Of a stretch of DNA of 40,203 bases, positions 1-40,203 are shown piece after piece (position 1 is the first letter of the stretch; every line of letters starts with the position of its first letter). The translations under genes and the position numbers were made by a program. The stretch is from a virus. Under the pieces are notes generated by a model, which did not search any database, was not told where the DNA came from, and worked only from the letters and a program-made list of their open reading frames with translations. The DNA lies in IMG/VR virus record IMGVR_UViG_3300031975_001825, positions 1-40,203 of that record, one strand, 5' to 3'.

Positions 1-151
1 TCGTCATCGTAGTCCAGGCCGCTCACATCGACTGGGGGCGGCGCAGTGGCGAGCGTCGCAGTCACAGCAGCCCAGCCGCCGCATAGGGTCACGTCGTCGT
101 TGCAGGGCCAGGGCTCGCCCGTGTGCTCGCGCGAGGCCGCGCGCGATGCGT
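1..151. repeat. Terminal overlap, left copy
   Basis: Bases 1-151 match 40053-40203 except at two positions (35 G against 40087 T, and 104 A against 40156 C). The repeat marks the join of a circular map or a terminal redundancy. The metallophosphoesterase frame continues across the join with no break. The unique genome length is therefore about 40,052 bp. Confidence 0.95.
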
Positions 152-257
152 CGCGGGTCCATGGCAGCGGCGAGCCGCAGCGGCGCCACAGGTCAGCGAA
201 GCGGGCCAGCGTCCACGTTGCGCGCTCCGGGCTGCCAGCGGGGGGCCGCGCGCTCAC
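1..257 (-). CDS. Metallophosphoesterase, N-terminal part (gene continues across the join into 40052-39164)
   Basis: This is the first 85 codons of the calcineurin-like phosphoesterase whose catalytic part lies at the right end of the window. A GTG start at 257-255 overlaps the TGA stop of the HslV-like gene as GTGA, the coupling style of the whole operon. Joining 257-1 to 40052-39164 gives 1146 nt, exactly 382 codons including the stop, so the protein has 381 residues. This segment is a Trp/Arg-rich N-terminal extension with no recognised domain. In this copy two residues differ from the right-end copy: Pro instead of Thr and Cys instead of Gly. Confidence 0.85.
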   Translation of the reverse strand, partial: MSARPPAGSPERATWTLARFADLWRRCGSPLPWTRDASRAASREHTGEPWPCNDDVTLCGGWAAVTATLATAPPPVDVSGLDYDD

Positions 258-775
258 CGCGCCACCTCCGCGAGCGACATTGGCCCGCGCACACCCGCGG
301 CGTGCCGCTCAGCCGCGTCGAGCGCGAGTCTCACTCTGTCCACTGCTGACATGGCCAATCCCTCCGTGGCGGCCAGGGCGCCGAGCGCGGCGCTGCCACC
401 GCTCCCGATCGCCGCGTACCCGTGGAGCGGCCGCACGAGGCCGCCGCCCTCATCCATCGTGAACACCGCACCGCCGACCACGATCAGCAGGTCGAGCGAG
501 TCCTCCTTGAGATCCATCGCGGCGACCACCGGGGCGAGGTGCGTGGCTGGCCAGTTCGCCAGCGTCTGCCCCTTGCGCACCGCAGACACCTTCGCCCGCG
601 CCACTCTCGCAGCGGCGGCCATGTCGCCAGCGAAGCCGATCGTTGCAGGTCCGAGGCGGAACCACTTGGGCAGCGCGGTCAGTTCGACGAAGCCGTCCGC
701 CGAACCGACGCACGCGTCCGAGCCGATGACGGCCTCGCCGCCTGCGCTTGCTGCCACGGCGACGACGGCGGTCAT
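254..775 (-). CDS. HslV/proteasome beta-type Ntn-hydrolase peptidase
   Basis: The 173-residue product has the length and layout of HslV, the peptidase of the HslUV protease. Met1 is followed by Thr, which after Met removal would be the catalytic N-terminal nucleophile. A GSD motif supplies the Asp and a PKWFRL motif supplies the Lys that partner Thr1 in HslV. The FAGD loop and the AIGSGG stretch near residue 126 match the HslV core. No HslU-type ATPase is encoded in the window, so the enzyme would use a host ATPase or act alone. It is coupled by TGATG to the gene upstream and by GTGA to the phosphoesterase downstream, within the late operon. A role in virion assembly, host takeover or lysis timing is only inference. 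Confidence 0.85.
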   Translation of the reverse strand: MTAVVAVAASAGGEAVIGSDACVGSADGFVELTALPKWFRLGPATIGFAGDMAAAARVARAKVSAVRKGQTLANWPATHLAPVVAAMDLKEDSLDLLIVVGGAVFTMDEGGGLVRPLHGYAAIGSGGSAALGALAATEGLAMSAVDRVRLALDAAERHAAGVRGPMSLAEVAR

Positions 776-993
776 CAGTGCTCGGTCCCGTCACTGCCAG
801 TCGCCGCACCGAGACTCGCGGCGGTTGCGTCGAAGATGGCTTCACCAAGTTGGTCGTGAAGCCGCTGTGCGCTCTCGATGCTGAACCCGCCCTCGGGCTC
901 GCCACCGAGCAGCATGATCACGATGTGCCCGTCATCGGTCTCACCGTGCACGAAGGCCACCGAGTCCGCGCCGTCGTCGTCATCGTCCATCAT
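775..993 (-). CDS. Small acidic protein, unknown function
   Basis: The 72-residue product begins MMDDDDDG and is acidic, with a predicted beta-strand segment followed by a helix. The start at 993 was chosen because its ATG overlaps the stop of the gene upstream (ATGA); a longer frame runs to 1197 but its extra part is Arg-rich shadow sequence. The stop overlaps the start of the HslV-like gene by one base (TGATG), so the two are probably translated together. It could be a partner or substrate adaptor of the peptidase, but nothing in the sequence proves this. Confidence 0.65.
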   Translation of the reverse strand: MMDDDDDGADSVAFVHGETDDGHIVIMLLGGEPEGGFSIESAQRLHDQLGEAIFDATAASLGAATGSDGTEH

Positions 994-1178
994 GCCGGCC
1001 ACTCCCTCCGCGCGGCAAAGTCGCGCATCTCGCGTTGCAGTCCGTAGAGCGCGAGCGCGCGCGCAGTCTCCGAGTCCGCGCCGAGCGCCATCCACCCGCG
1101 CACCATGTGCAGCGCGACCAGGTCGTGACGCCGCGCCGCTTCGCGCGTCACCACGAGCAGGGCGCGCGGGGAGGTCAC
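990..1178 (-). CDS. Small helical protein, unknown function
   Basis: The product has 62 residues. The GTG start at 1178 overlaps the upstream TGA as GTGA. The sequence is mainly helical and Arg/Ala-rich, with no membrane segment or known motif. Its place in an unbroken chain of overlapping late genes supports it as real. No function can be assigned. Confidence 0.6.
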   Translation of the reverse strand: MTSPRALLVVTREAARRHDLVALHMVRGWMALGADSETARALALYGLQREMRDFAARREWPA

Positions 1179-1351
1179 TGGCCCTCGACCAGCGCAAGGG
1201 TGAGCGGGCCGCTGCGCAGCGGGCACCACTGAGGCGGCCGCACGACCGACGCGGGAAGCTGGCGCGTCGGCTCCAGCGCGCACATCCACGCGCTGCGAAG
1301 CTGGCGCAACGGGCAGCCGCCGCAGCCCCACACCTTGCGCGGCTCGGTCAC
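1175..1351 (-). CDS. Small Cys-containing protein, unknown function
   Basis: The product has 58 residues with a GTG start at 1351 that overlaps the previous stop. It carries a CGGC pair near residue 10 and two further Cys (about 24 and 43). Four Cys could bind one metal ion, although the spacing fits no family I know. A longer frame to 1435 exists, but the coupled start is preferred. Confidence 0.55.
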   Translation of the reverse strand: MTEPRKVWGCGGCPLRQLRSAWMCALEPTRQLPASVVRPPQWCPLRSGPLTLALVEGQ

Positions 1352-1512: not shown

Positions 1513-1817
1513 GTGACCGGCCGGAAGGCTGCGAGCTCCTCGGCGCTCAGGTGCCCAGCCGCCTTGAGCCGCTCGACGGTGCGCGCACGGATGCCCTTGT
1601 CGAGCGCGTCGATGGGCAGCGCGGGCGGCGCGAGCTCGGAGCGTCGAGCCGCCACAGCAGCCGCCAGCGCCGGCCCGATGGACTCACCGACCGGCGTGTC
1701 GCGCATCTCGCGTAGCGCGTCCTCGAGGGCGCGCGAGCCGTCCGCGTGACTCGCGATGAAGCGCACCAACTGGATGACGGTCGGCACGAGCGACAACGCG
1801 AAGGCTCCGGCGTCCAT
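1509..1817 (-). CDS. Conserved-looking small late protein, unknown function
   Basis: The product has 102 residues. The ATG at 1817 follows a strong GGGAGGTGA ribosome site and overlaps the upstream stop as TGATG; the GTG one codon earlier is less well spaced. The first 25 residues are hydrophobic and may form a membrane or amphipathic helix; the rest looks helical. It follows the lysis candidates directly, so a lysis accessory role is possible but unproven. Confidence 0.65.
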   Translation of the reverse strand: MDAGAFALSLVPTVIQLVRFIASHADGSRALEDALREMRDTPVGESIGPALAAAVAARRSELAPPALPIDALDKGIRARTVERLKAAGHLSAEELAAFRPVT

Positions 1818-2302
1818 CACTCACCTCCCAGCGCGGCGAGCAGGCCGCGGACGATGGCGGGCAGCGGCGGCAGGTCCACGGCTATCCGCGCGAGCGCGGC
1901 AACCACGGCGTCCCACTGGCGCACAACGCGCGCGAGGGCGACCACGAGCGCGGCGAGCACGTCCTCGCCAGCGTCGGCCACAGCGGCGACCTCGACGGCC
2001 TCACGGTAGGCGATCGTCGCGACGCGCAGTGCCTCGTGGGCGACGCCCACCGCGCCCGAAACCTGCTCCACATCGGCCAAGCACGCCTCATCGCCGCAGC
2101 CCTGCGCGGCAGCCTCGACGCTGGCGACTGCCACCTCCCCAGCGCCGCGGGTGGCGACGGTGAGGATGGTGGCAGCCGAGGCGTGGTGCTGGACGGCAGA
2201 CGCGCCGCAGCCGGACAGCAGCGTCACGAGCAGCGCGCCCACGAGGCCGATGCCAGCGAGCACCGCCACCGTGTCGACGATGGCCCCGACGCGCGGAGTC
2301 AC
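1817..2302 (-). CDS. Lipoprotein in lysis region (o-spanin candidate)
   Basis: The 161-residue product has a classic bacterial lipoprotein signal: a positive N-terminus, a hydrophobic core (residues about 9-29) and the lipobox L-S-G-C near residue 32. After the Cys comes an Ala/Val-rich helical domain. The GTG start at 2302 overlaps the stop of the holin-like gene. Lying just behind an i-spanin-like and a holin-like gene, it could be the outer-membrane half of a spanin pair. It is longer and less Pro-rich than typical o-spanins, so an exclusion lipoprotein is the alternative. Confidence 0.7.
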   Translation of the reverse strand: MTPRVGAIVDTVAVLAGIGLVGALLVTLLSGCGASAVQHHASAATILTVATRGAGEVAVASVEAAAQGCGDEACLADVEQVSGAVGVAHEALRVATIAYREAVEVAAVADAGEDVLAALVVALARVVRQWDAVVAALARIAVDLPPLPAIVRGLLAALGGE

Positions 2303-2481
2303 GACGGATCCGCCTTGAGGAGCTGCGGCATGGCGGCCGCGGCGGCGGTGAACAGCGCCGCGAGCCCGGCGACCAGGCGGCCGGCGATGTCCTCGGGGGC
2401 GAAGATGGCGACGAGCGTCACCGCCGCGATGCCGGCGATGGCGACTGCCGCGGTAGGCCACTGGATAGCGTAGGTCTTCAT
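2299..2481 (-). CDS. Holin-like small membrane protein
   Basis: The 60-residue product has two hydrophobic helices (about residues 10-28 and 34-54) joined by a short APEDIAG turn, with a Lys/Asp tail. This layout fits a two-helix (class II) holin, which pores the inner membrane to release endolysin. The ATG at 2481 is preceded by GGAGAAG at a somewhat long distance. Its place between the i-spanin-like and lipoprotein genes supports the call. Sequence alone cannot separate a holin from an antiholin. Confidence 0.6.
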   Translation of the reverse strand: MKTYAIQWPTAAVAIAGIAAVTLVAIFAPEDIAGRLVAGLAALFTAAAAAMPQLLKADPS

Positions 2482-2581
2482 GGCTGCTCACTTCTCCCGG
2501 GGTCATGCCCCGCGCTGCGGAGGCGTTGCCGCTCTCGACGCGGCGTCTCAAATCGCGACTGCGCACCATGCGCACCGCGGA

Positions 2582-3001
2582 CTAGTCTTCGGTCGGCTCG
2601 ATGGGCTCCATCTGCTCGGAGTCATAGGCGGGGATCCCGAGCGGCGGCGACAGTGAGCGGAGCGAGCGACGCACGGTGGACAGGTCGCGCCGCACCTGCC
2701 GGATCTGCTCCGCGCACTCGGCCTTCGCTTCGTCCAGCTTGCGTTGGCACTCGTCCGCGTCATCGTCGCGCTTCTGGCGCTCTTCGTCGTAGCGGTGCCG
2801 GAAGCAGTCGAGGTCCGAGCGCGTCTGCTTGAGGTCGTCACGGAGCGAGTCCACGAGCGTTCGCAGCGTCTCGGCCGCGGTCTTGTCCGCGTCCGCGCGC
2901 GATGCGCTGGAGTCGCCGTGCTTGCGCACCCAGTACGCCAGCGCGCCGAGTAGGCCCGCCGCCGCAGTGAGGATGCCGCCGAGTTGGATAGCGTCCGTCA
3001 T
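2582..3001 (-). CDS. i-spanin-like membrane-anchored coiled-coil protein
   Basis: The product has 139 residues: one N-terminal membrane segment (about 8-26) and then a long charged heptad-type helix (about 35-115) ending in a short Pro-containing acidic tail. Inner-membrane spanins (Rz type) have this architecture and bridge to an outer-membrane lipoprotein during the last step of Gram-negative lysis. The ATG at 3001 overlaps the upstream stop. About 100 bp separate it from the holin-like gene. Another membrane-anchored coiled-coil protein cannot be excluded. Confidence 0.6.
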   Translation of the reverse strand: MTDAIQLGGILTAAAGLLGALAYWVRKHGDSSASRADADKTAAETLRTLVDSLRDDLKQTRSDLDCFRHRYDEERQKRDDDADECQRKLDEAKAECAEQIRQVRRDLSTVRRSLRSLSPPLGIPAYDSEQMEPIEPTED

Positions 3002-3342
3002 CGCGACCTCACCGGCCCTTCCATCGACGCGGCCGATAAACGCGACCCGGTGCGCCGTGTGTCGTCCACGTCTGTCGCCGTGGCGCGCAGTGGGATCGTG
3101 GCGGGGCGCCCTTCTACGGTCGTCGCGTACGCGCGCACGGTGTCGAGTAGGCGGCGCTTGTCGACGAAGCCGAACAGCGCGCCGCCGTCGATCTCGATGA
3201 CCTGCGACATGGGCAGCCGCGCGCGCTCTTCGGTGCGCCCGTTGGGGAGTCGCACCGTCTCGCGAGCGCCCATAGCCTCCGTCCACGCCTCGATCACATC
3301 GCGGCATGCACGCTCAGTGGAGTAGGTGTGAACGAGTGCCAT
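2998..3342 (-). CDS. Small late protein behind the fibre gene, unknown function
   Basis: The product has 114 residues, and its ATG at 3342 shares a base with the fibre stop (TGATG). The middle has a compact alternating pattern (VIEIDGGALFGFVDKRRLL) that suggests a small folded domain. There is no signal peptide or membrane helix. Genes directly after tail-fibre genes often encode fibre chaperones or small tail parts; here this is inference from position only. Confidence 0.6.
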   Translation of the reverse strand: MALVHTYSTERACRDVIEAWTEAMGARETVRLPNGRTEERARLPMSQVIEIDGGALFGFVDKRRLLDTVRAYATTVEGRPATIPLRATATDVDDTRRTGSRLSAASMEGPVRSR

Positions 3343-37490: not shown

Positions 37491-38174
37491 CTATACGCGC
37501 GCCCACCCCGCGCCCGCTAGCGCGTCGCAGAGCAGACCCGCGGCGTCGACCTTCCGCGTGGACGCGCTGTGCAGGTGCTCCGCGCCGCCACGCCAGCGCC
37601 GAGCCTCGGCCCGCGTCATGCGGCCGGCGGCAGCCGGGACCACGCGCGGGATCGGCAGGTGCGCGGTCAGCGTCTCGGCGAGCCGGACCCACGCGGCGAT
37701 CTGCTCGTCGGGTGGCTCGTAGACGCGCACGCCTCGGCCGGCCACGCGCCGGGGCAACACGCCCCCGCCCTGGTAGCCGAGCCTGCGCGCCTGCCTCTCG
37801 GTGCCGGGCCAGCAGAGCTCCACGCCGACGCCGCGCCGGTTCCAGTCGCGGCTGACATGGATGGTGCCGTGCGCGAGGTCCGCCGTCTGGTGCGTGATGC
37901 CGTCCGCGCCGATGATGAAATGCACGCCGACCGCCATCGGCGAGCCGTCCTCGCGTAGCCGGGCCTTCATGGCGCGCACGACCCTGCACGCCGAGTCGGG
38001 CCCGGTGTGCATCCGGCCGCCGGTCCAGTGGCCGACGAGCACCTCGGGCGCGTCCACCGTGCGCTCGCAGGTGCCGCGCTCGCCGTCTGCCCACCATGCC
38101 GCGGGGTCGCGCATCACCCAGCCGGTACCGGGCAGCGCGGTGCCGCGGTAGAGGATGCCGGTTGCGGTCGTCAC
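37491..38174 (-). CDS. Endolysin: N-acetylmuramoyl-L-alanine amidase (Amidase_2 / T7 lysozyme type)
   Basis: A GTG at 38174 gives 227 residues. The zinc amidase domain is visible: VGHWTGG with His49, GVHFIIGADG and a conserved TIHVSRDWNRRGVGVEL core (about 104-120), and HLHSASTRKVDAAG at 200-213, with a zinc His (200 or 202), catalytic Lys208 and Asp210. The enzyme cuts the bond between muramic acid and the peptide. There is no signal peptide or anchor, so it should need the holin. It is the last gene of the leftward unit. Confidence 0.9.
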   Translation of the reverse strand: MTTATGILYRGTALPGTGWVMRDPAAWWADGERGTCERTVDAPEVLVGHWTGGRMHTGPDSACRVVRAMKARLREDGSPMAVGVHFIIGADGITHQTADLAHGTIHVSRDWNRRGVGVELCWPGTERQARRLGYQGGGVLPRRVAGRGVRVYEPPDEQIAAWVRLAETLTAHLPIPRVVPAAAGRMTRAEARRWRGGAEHLHSASTRKVDAAGLLCDALAGAGWARV

Positions 38175-38323
38175 GTCGCGATCCCCGTGCGCAGGAAGTG
38201 CGCCCACGCGGCGAGTCGCCGGGCCTCGCGCTTGTGGTAGTCGCTGCCGGTGAGCCACCCCGCGAGGTGGCGAGCGTGCGCCCGGTCATCCGCGTCTCGG
38301 GCCGCCGCGTCGCGCTCGGTCAT
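38171..38323 (-). CDS. Small helical protein before endolysin, unknown function
   Basis: The gene reads from ATG 38323 to TGA 38171 (50 residues) and overlaps both neighbours by four bases. It is Ala/Arg/His-rich and helical. No motif. Confidence 0.5.
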   Translation of the reverse strand: MTERDAAARDADDRAHARHLAGWLTGSDYHKREARRLAAWAHFLRTGIAT

Positions 38324-38667
38324 CGGTCGCTCTCCTCGTCGCTGAACACGCCGCGCGCGATGTCGGGCACGCTGGACCGGATGGCCTCGGTGGCGGCGTT
38401 GATCTGGTCCAGTTGGTGGCTCACGGAGAGCACGGCGGATATCGCTGGCGCGCTCGGGCGGCGCTGCCTGACGACGCGAGCGAGCTGCTGCGACCCGGTG
38501 ACCGGGGGCGGCTCCACGCGCGGGTCATCCGGCGCGACGCGCACGGCCTCGACCGTCTGCGAGCTCCGCGACGTGCGAGCCTCCAGGTGGGCGCACCGCA
38601 GCTCGAGCGCCTCGACACGCTGCATGAGGCCGAGCATCTGTCGGCGCTCGATCTCGGTCATGCTCAC
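38320..38667 (-). CDS. Small coiled-coil protein, unknown function
   Basis: The product has 115 residues from GTG 38667 (GTGA overlap); an ATG two codons later is possible. Residues 4-40 form a coiled coil (EIERRQMLGLMQRVEALELR). A Pro-rich middle and a second helix (VSHQLDQINAATEAIRSS) follow. It lies between the MazG-like and endolysin genes. Function unknown. Confidence 0.55.
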   Translation of the reverse strand: MSMTEIERRQMLGLMQRVEALELRCAHLEARTSRSSQTVEAVRVAPDDPRVEPPPVTGSQQLARVVRQRRPSAPAISAVLSVSHQLDQINAATEAIRSSVPDIARGVFSDEESDR

Positions 38668-39167
38668 CGGAGCGCCTCAGCGGGCGGGGTGTAGTGCGGG
38701 CCGATGGCAGCACGTCGAGCCAGCCGCCACGAGGCGAAGCCCTCCATGGCGAGCTGACGCGCGCGACGCTCGTCCTCGGGGCACGCGACGCGCAGCACCC
38801 ACGACCAGCCGGTGATGTCCACGCACTCCTCTTGGATCTCGCTGAGCAGCCGGCCGCGGTCCCGCGCGAAGCTGCCGTCTCCATACTCGGCGGCGCCGCG
38901 CTCGAGCTTGGCTCGCACGGTGGCGAGGTACTCGGTCCACAGCGGGTCCGCGCTCTCATCCGCCCACTCAGCGAGTCGCGCGATGGCGGCGTCGCTGACC
39001 GGCGTCGGCCCGATGCGCTCGCGGCGGATGTCGCTGGCCAGCTTGCCGAGCACCTCATCCTCGGTCGCGCCGTAGATGACGCGCGGGAAGCCGTCGACCG
39101 TGCGCGTCATTCGCCAGGTGCCGTCGCGCAGTTGCACGGTGCGATAGTCATTCAGAGCCTCACTCAT
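38664..39167 (-). CDS. MazG-like / all-alpha NTP pyrophosphohydrolase-like protein
   Basis: The product has 167 residues. The C-terminal half (about 75-150) is all helix, with YGDGSFAR then LLSEIQEECVDITGWSWVLR; the E-x2-E-E...D pattern is like the metal-binding helices of MazG-type enzymes that hydrolyse NTPs. The N-terminal part (1-45) has strands and a QLRDGTWRMTR pattern. Phage MazG may alter nucleotide or alarmone pools. The family is tentative, since the second Glu/Asp pair of MazG is not clear. Confidence 0.55.
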   Translation of the reverse strand: MSEALNDYRTVQLRDGTWRMTRTVDGFPRVIYGATEDEVLGKLASDIRRERIGPTPVSDAAIARLAEWADESADPLWTEYLATVRAKLERGAAEYGDGSFARDRGRLLSEIQEECVDITGWSWVLRVACPEDERRARQLAMEGFASWRLARRAAIGPHYTPPAEALR

Positions 39168-40203
39168 GCCGCACGCCTCCCGTATCGCTCAGTCAGCCGG
39201 TCGAGAGACCAGCACTCGATGTCGCCATGCCCAGGCCCGCGCAGGTGCACGAGCACGATGCAGCGCCGCCACATGCGCGACGTGGCCAGGCTCCACCCCT
39301 CGCTGTCGTCGGGGTGCGTGATGCAGCCAGCGACGATGTTCTGCGCGACCCTGCCAGCCGCAGTGCTCTCGGTGTGCGTGTCGTAGATGTGCGAGTGTCC
39401 CGAGAGCGTGGACTCGTGCATCTTCATGAAGTGCTGACGCGCTGGGCCGACGCCACCGATCGGCCGCCCCATGATGCCGGCGGGGTGGTAGTGGCTCGCG
39501 AGGTAGCCGGCCACGCGGACGCCCGGCTGCATGAAGCGATGCACGCGCCATCCCCAGCCAACCACGCCCAGCGTGTCAGTGCCCAGGATGCCCTCGACTT
39601 CTGGCGCGTCGTTCGCGTACTTGTCGAGCCGCGCCTCGTGGTTGCCCATGCAGAAGTCGAGGCTTGGCGAGTACGCGCGGCCCGCCCACGGCTGACAAAA
39701 GAGGTCCATCGCCTCGGCACCAGCGTCGATGTCAGCGCGCGCCCTGCGCCCCTCGCCGCTGCGCTTGCCCTTGTCGTACGACGAGAGCGCGGGCATGTCC
39801 CACCAGTCACCGAGACAGCACACGTAGTCGGGCCGGTGGTCCTCGACGAAGCGACCCATGAGACCGAACCGCGCGTTGTCAAACTCCGGGTGTGCGTGTG
39901 CGTCGGGGATGACAAGCAGCGTCTTGCCGCGTGGGTTGGCGTCATTTACTAAATGACACGCTTCCGGGGATGACACTCGCGGATGGCCCAGGCCAGTTGT
40001 TACAGAATCCGCAACAACTGGCCCGCTCGTCACGCCCGGCCGCGTGGGCGCGTCGTCATCGTAGTCCAGGCCGCTCACATCGACTGTGGGCGGCGCAGTG
40101 GCGAGCGTCGCAGTCACAGCAGCCCAGCCGCCGCATAGGGTCACGTCGTCGTTGCCGGGCCAGGGCTCGCCCGTGTGCTCGCGCGAGGCCGCGCGCGATG
40201 CGT
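39164..40203 (-). CDS. Metallophosphoesterase (calcineurin-like), catalytic part; 5' end lies across the join at 257
   Basis: This segment holds the catalytic domain. In the joined 381-residue protein the order is DAH (136-138), GDWWD (167-171), GNHE (222-225), SHYHP (about 272) and GHSH (304-307), the five motifs of two-metal phosphoesterases. Substrates of the family range from phosphoproteins to nucleotides and DNA ends; nothing here picks one. The ORF can also be read from an internal ATG-like GTG at 40144, but the coupled GTG at 257 fits better. It follows the HslV-like gene and precedes the MazG-like gene. Confidence 0.85.
   Translation of the reverse strand, partial: ASRAASREHTGEPWPGNDDVTLCGGWAAVTATLATAPPTVDVSGLDYDDDAPTRPGVTSGPVVADSVTTGLGHPRVSSPEACHLVNDANPRGKTLLVIPDAHAHPEFDNARFGLMGRFVEDHRPDYVCCLGDWWDMPALSSYDKGKRSGEGRRARADIDAGAEAMDLFCQPWAGRAYSPSLDFCMGNHEARLDKYANDAPEVEGILGTDTLGVVGWGWRVHRFMQPGVRVAGYLASHYHPAGIMGRPIGGVGPARQHFMKMHESTLSGHSHIYDTHTESTAAGRVAQNIVAGCITHPDDSEGWSLATSRMWRRCIVLVHLRGPGHGDIECWSLDRLTERYGRRAA
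40053..40203. repeat. Terminal overlap, right copy
   Basis: These 151 bases repeat positions 1-151 with two differences, both changing one amino acid of the phosphoesterase (Pro/Thr and Cys/Gly). The differences look like population variation or consensus error and not long divergence. Confidence 0.95.

Follow-up and report, generated by a model that had tools for sequence, protein, structure and literature searches.

Proteasome homologues are widespread in phages, yet they are poorly understood. They were described as a class, with the types PPH, AAH and CPH, by Fuchs et al. in 2021 (PMC8665760), and a Salmonella jumbo phage has been reported to carry HslV without HslU (PMC7823757). In the open-licence literature we could find no paper on the substrate, partner or phenotype of any phage member. 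The bacterial homologue BPH is the nearest structural analogue of P0001, the phage protein analysed here; in purified form it showed no activity on standard peptides or casein (PMC5777263), which means that P0001 cannot simply be taken to be active. A preliminary description of this DNA had presented a proteasome-type peptidase in a phage as uncommon, a view supported neither by these reports, of a published class and of HslV without HslU, nor by our own count: a single query from a Rhizobium phage, run at E up to 0.1 against 50,697 phage records, matched 443, and in 404 cases the match spanned 80% or more of the query, so that the kind is not rare.

The window analysed here is the whole virus record IMGVR_UViG_3300031975_001825, which is 40,203 bases long with 70.8% GC. 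Its ends carry a direct repeat of 151 bases (positions 1-151 and 40053-40203, 98.7% identity with two mismatches), and the record is therefore probably circular or terminally redundant, with a phosphoesterase gene running across the junction. An integrase, a repressor, a Sak4-like annealase, a DnaC-like loader and a RusA-like resolvase are encoded by the same phage, a gene set as in temperate phages. A tRNA scan and an Rfam scan gave no match. Between positions 3342 and 16639 of the window, the capsid, tail and fibre genes show almost no PHROG match, which marks this structural module as very divergent.

The peptidase open reading frame had been placed at 254-775, which proved exact; it encodes 173 amino acids and lies on the minus strand, on which the preliminary description was silent. 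The translation of P0001 begins MTAVVAVAASAGGEAVIGSDACVGSADGF, and its ATG is the sole ATG, GTG or TTG start 5' of Thr2, since only five further codons are available in the open frame back to the preceding stop. GC content at the three codon positions (0.75/0.56/0.85) follows the pattern of a coding frame. The gene and its surroundings are laid out as follows.

3..257, minus strand: first part of the metallophosphoesterase gene, which continues over the record end at 39164-40201
254..257, minus strand: GTGA overlap of four shared bases between the P0001 stop and the phosphoesterase GTG start
254..775, minus strand: coding sequence of the proteasome-like Ntn peptidase P0001, 173 aa, without propeptide
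773..777, minus strand: TGATG overlap between the stop of the upstream gene and the P0001 start codon, one base shared
775..1197, minus strand: upstream gene with no assigned function, true start probably near 1000
1817..2575, minus strand: ORF with a probable lipoprotein, spanin-like by eye, no family match
2582..3307, minus strand: ORF for a membrane and coiled-coil protein, holin- or spanin-like (PHROG 2658, hol-like, E = 1.7e-6)
37491..38258, minus strand: endolysin with Amidase_2 domain, two genes past the phosphoesterase (Pfam E = 7.1e-11; PHROG endolysin)
38664..39167, minus strand: gene without assigned function, between phosphoesterase and endolysin
39164..40201, minus strand: main part of the metallophosphoesterase gene (PHROG 221, E = 7.2e-36)

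The TGATG and GTGA overlaps place the P0001 gene inside a tightly coupled minus-strand operon, in which TerL, portal and tail genes are followed by the membrane/coiled-coil and lipoprotein ORFs and then by P0001, the metallophosphoesterase, the gene without assigned function and the endolysin. P0001 has spanin-like genes on one side and the endolysin on the other, with the head genes distant. The late-operon setting first proposed for it is supported, and the PHROG 221 match confirms the phosphoesterase neighbour that had been named. We also considered the peptidase and phosphoesterase as a conserved module and dropped this idea, as their joint recurrence is loose (~2.2 kb apart in Pseudomonas phage M1 and ~11 kb in V22) and phosphoesterases are common.

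P0001 matched PHROG 1040, "peptidase HslV family", with E = 1.4e-8, a weak match at 35.6 bits, and the same family was matched by all 12 aligned members (P0001 and 11 relatives). The Pfam Proteasome, NCBIfam HslV and archaeal beta models returned 14-19 bits, all under cut-off, and the curated HslV model gave 15 bits against a cut-off of 157.75. A profile of the sister proteins, built without P0001, scored 51.5 bits on it where the best of 1000 shuffles reached 8.7, a match beyond chance, and a profile of PPH-type phage proteins scored 20.7 bits (best shuffle, 6.7). Searched against the PDB, the clade profile found HslV 1m4y (1.9e-10), BPH 5ovs (2e-10) and proteasome beta (2.2e-6), spanning 1m4y and 5ovs over nearly their full length, with HslV and BPH about equal.

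A tblastn search with P0001 against phages (50,697 records) and plasmids at E up to 10 returned nothing, and neither single-sequence scans of viral contigs and of genome contigs nor an alignment-guided scan of genome contigs found a relative. The tblastn and single-sequence blanks reflect divergence, since alignment-guided scans of IMG/VR, reached with phage homologues as stepping stones, yielded 8, then 20 and then 53 viral loci. These 53 loci encode relatives in which the active site is kept, and P0001 is ~30-39% identical to them. P0001 belongs to a kind of protein that is known though unexplained, and to a branch that is little described and was not found among sequenced phage isolates.

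In trees of 36 and 39 sequences, P0001 joins these IMG/VR relatives (99/95 and 98/93), and together they join L037 (93/91 and 97/94 in the same two trees). The clade falls outside the HslV clade, itself held at 100/100, and it is separate from the sampled PPH-type phage proteins (98/93 and 97/94 in the 39-sequence tree). Its grouping with BPH is weak at 82/55, and the composition of P0001 deviates from the alignment. An AlphaFold2 model built with 12 sequences arranges its strands and helices in the order known from proteasomes, at low confidence and with poor geometry (pLDDT 61.5, pTM 0.56), and it predicts an H2 helix at residues 75-86 followed by a short loop at 87-95, a region modelled with low confidence. 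When the model was compared by Foldseek and VIA-align, the top matches were all proteasome, HslV, Anbu, BPH or phage homologues, with TM-scores near 0.4 and Z values no higher than 6.5; from the single sequence, AlphaFold2 reached a pLDDT of 38. We take the model as support for the alpha-beta-beta-alpha Ntn fold of proteasomes, not as proof, and given its low confidence the fold details and ring interfaces of P0001 are not established by it. The initial label "HslV-like" holds in that P0001 is a proteasome-type Ntn peptidase and fails in the strict sense of HslV, given the model score and the position outside the HslV clade. P0001 belongs to the group I proteasome-like Ntn hydrolases, within PHROG 1040, and would be mislabelled as HslV.

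We aligned P0001 with the HslV proteins of E. coli and T. maritima and with two BPH structures. Thr2, Asp20 and Lys37 fall on Thr1, Asp17 and Lys33 of E. coli HslV, in agreement with the initial claim that all three catalytic positions are kept, and Gly50 and Ser125 fall on the oxyanion-hole Gly and the Ser of the GSG motif. The catalytic set of BPH, T1, D17, K37, G50 and S139 (PMC5777263), is matched in P0001, and the role given here to the GSG Ser is taken from BPH Ser139 (PMC5777263). The codons are the following.

770..772, minus strand: Thr2, predicted nucleophile (Thr1 once Met is removed), aligned with HslV/BPH Thr1
716..718, minus strand: Asp20, equivalent of Asp17, invariant in 33/33 distinct clade proteins
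665..667, minus strand: Lys37, equivalent of Lys33, invariant in 33/33 distinct clade proteins
626..628, minus strand: Gly50, equivalent of oxyanion-hole Gly47, invariant in 33/33 distinct clade proteins
398..406, minus strand: Gly124-Ser125-Gly126, the GSG motif (GSGG), whose Ser supports Thr1, invariant in 33/33

Met is followed by Thr across the 33 distinct proteins, except in L037, which has Ser; the apparent gap at this position in L090 comes from the choice of start codon. The gene in question, L037:4692-5258, lies in a 62-kb phage contig and encodes Ser in place of Thr as the predicted nucleophile, and Ser1 is present in some BPHs too (PMC5777263). Among sister genes dN/dS is 0.06-0.16, the mark of purifying selection, which indicates that function is maintained in the sister family. 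Judged by its sequence, P0001 is a real, intact and probably active group I proteasome-like peptidase.

The preliminary description had reported a peptidase without an HslU gene, and our search agrees: neither HslU (TIGR00390) nor ClpX/HslU-type AAA_2 (PF07724) had a match in the 40,203-base record, in which the controls matched, and the clade loci, short as they are, showed none either. A peptidase related to HslV and close to it in length (173 versus 176 aa), in a phage lacking HslU, could form a ring that docks on the host unfoldase HslU and redirects degradation to phage-chosen substrates. However, the HslV residues that hold the C-terminal tail of HslU, F54, F57 and Q114 (PMC6429459), are A, A and R in P0001, and no triple like the basic cluster R86/R89/K90 could be recognised at its residues 75-95, a region that aligns poorly. 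The P0001 clade also stands apart from HslV in the trees, and the host may lack HslU. BPH, with similar losses of HslU-contact residues and no known partner ATPase, bound no HslU in pull-downs (PMC5777263). The common fold family and length would likewise allow P0001 to poison host HslV through mixed, inactive rings, but identity to HslV is only ~26-28%, and a poison needs no intact catalytic site, yet the site is conserved across 33 proteins. The loss of the HslU-contact residues and the low identity to HslV disfavour both proposals, and we regard docking on HslU as very unlikely and poisoning of HslV as highly improbable. Among the three uses first proposed, the one in which the peptidase would act alone is the best fit.

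In 46 of the 50 IMG/VR loci checked (L030-L094), TerL is found 0.6-2.6 kb (once 4.8 kb) downstream of the clade gene and in the same orientation, mostly with TerS and portal genes as well, and with TerL identity down to about 55%. The genes between the clade peptidase and TerL vary among loci. At L045:681-1970, a ParB-like/DNA methyltransferase gene sits between peptidase and TerS and is missing in some relatives. This steady terminase linkage, together with the place of P0001 in a late operon and the fact that PHROGs recognised no prohead protease in the window, would suit a protease that acts late, in virion assembly or maturation, for instance by removing scaffold or trimming packaging proteins. 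The linkage is found within related phages, however, and may be descent only, and in the present phage the gene is distant from the head genes. Homologues in other phages lie by holin and lysozyme genes, near the terminase, after the portal gene, among tail genes on the other strand or among metabolism genes. No single genomic context accounts for the phage homologues, as Fuchs et al. also found (PMC8665760), and we consider a virion protease unlikely.

The patchy presence and variable location of the gene across phages could instead point to cargo (a moron) that aids the host or lysogen by clearing damaged proteins or countering host defence, with no direct role in the virion. No peptidase homologue was found in phage records that share the terminase or the phosphoesterase with this phage, which fits such cargo, in a search that had no positive control. 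The tight translational coupling inside a late operon and the stable packaging-gene linkage in the sister group argue against it, and we hold a cargo role to be rather unlikely.

We favour, by a modest degree of belief, the reading that P0001 is a catalytically competent group I Ntn hydrolase, probably BPH-like rather than HslV-like in its working, ATP-independent and acting late. By this mechanism, P0001 would be made late, from a gene translationally coupled to that of the phosphoesterase and close to the lysis genes. There is no propeptide to cut, and loss of the initiator Met would expose Thr1, which together with Asp19 and Lys36 (T1 numbering) would make up the catalytic site. The subunits probably assemble on their own into a closed, ring-shaped chamber, in which polypeptides that are small or unfolded would be digested with no AAA+ partner. 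In short, the gene most likely encodes an active peptidase that is independent of ATP and serves late in infection.

In dozens of phages the clade gene keeps a steady place beside those for terminase and portal, which hints at a role in packaging or a lysis switch. P0001 could belong to a phage-specific lineage distinct from HslV, BPH, PPH, AAH and CPH, an ATP-independent chamber protease in head packaging or the lysis switch; this we think quite unlikely, in a comparison that holds no AAH or CPH sequences. The clade offers some 33 distinct sequences whose active site is invariant, its unusually steady neighbours, terminase and portal, suggest testable roles, and the P0001 branch could help show whether proteasome-type chambers work without an unfoldase.

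Set beside the known systems, P0001 shares its catalytic layout with PHROG 1040, although P0001 itself has no tblastn match in the 50,697 phage records that were searched. With HslV (ClpQ) it has in common the fold family, the length and Thr1/Asp17/Lys33, and it differs in the HslU-pocket residues, the model score and its separate clade. AAH and CPH (Fuchs et al. 2021) are group I and occur in phages too; their sequences were outside the comparison, and the branch of P0001 may turn out to be AAH. Like P0001, PPH (PMC8665760) is a group I phage gene with the catalytic residues and no AAA+ partner, but PPH is ~140 aa and lacks helix H2 (PMC8665760), whereas P0001 has 173 aa and an H2 predicted at low confidence. 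P0001 also lacks equivalents of PPH Asp166 and Ser169, which counts against the favoured reading; the Asp166-type residue is invariant in the 18 PPH-type proteins sampled. BPH (PDB 5ovs and 5ovu; PMC5777263) is a bacterial gene whose product has a known heptameric (tetradecameric) double ring, and the long acidic H2-S7 pore loop of BPH contrasts with the short loop 87-95 of P0001, which is accompanied by an alignment gap in a low-confidence region of the model. The two are alike in their Thr/Asp/Lys/Gly/Ser site, in having no propeptide and no known partner ATPase, and in a conserved Pro close to the C-terminus.
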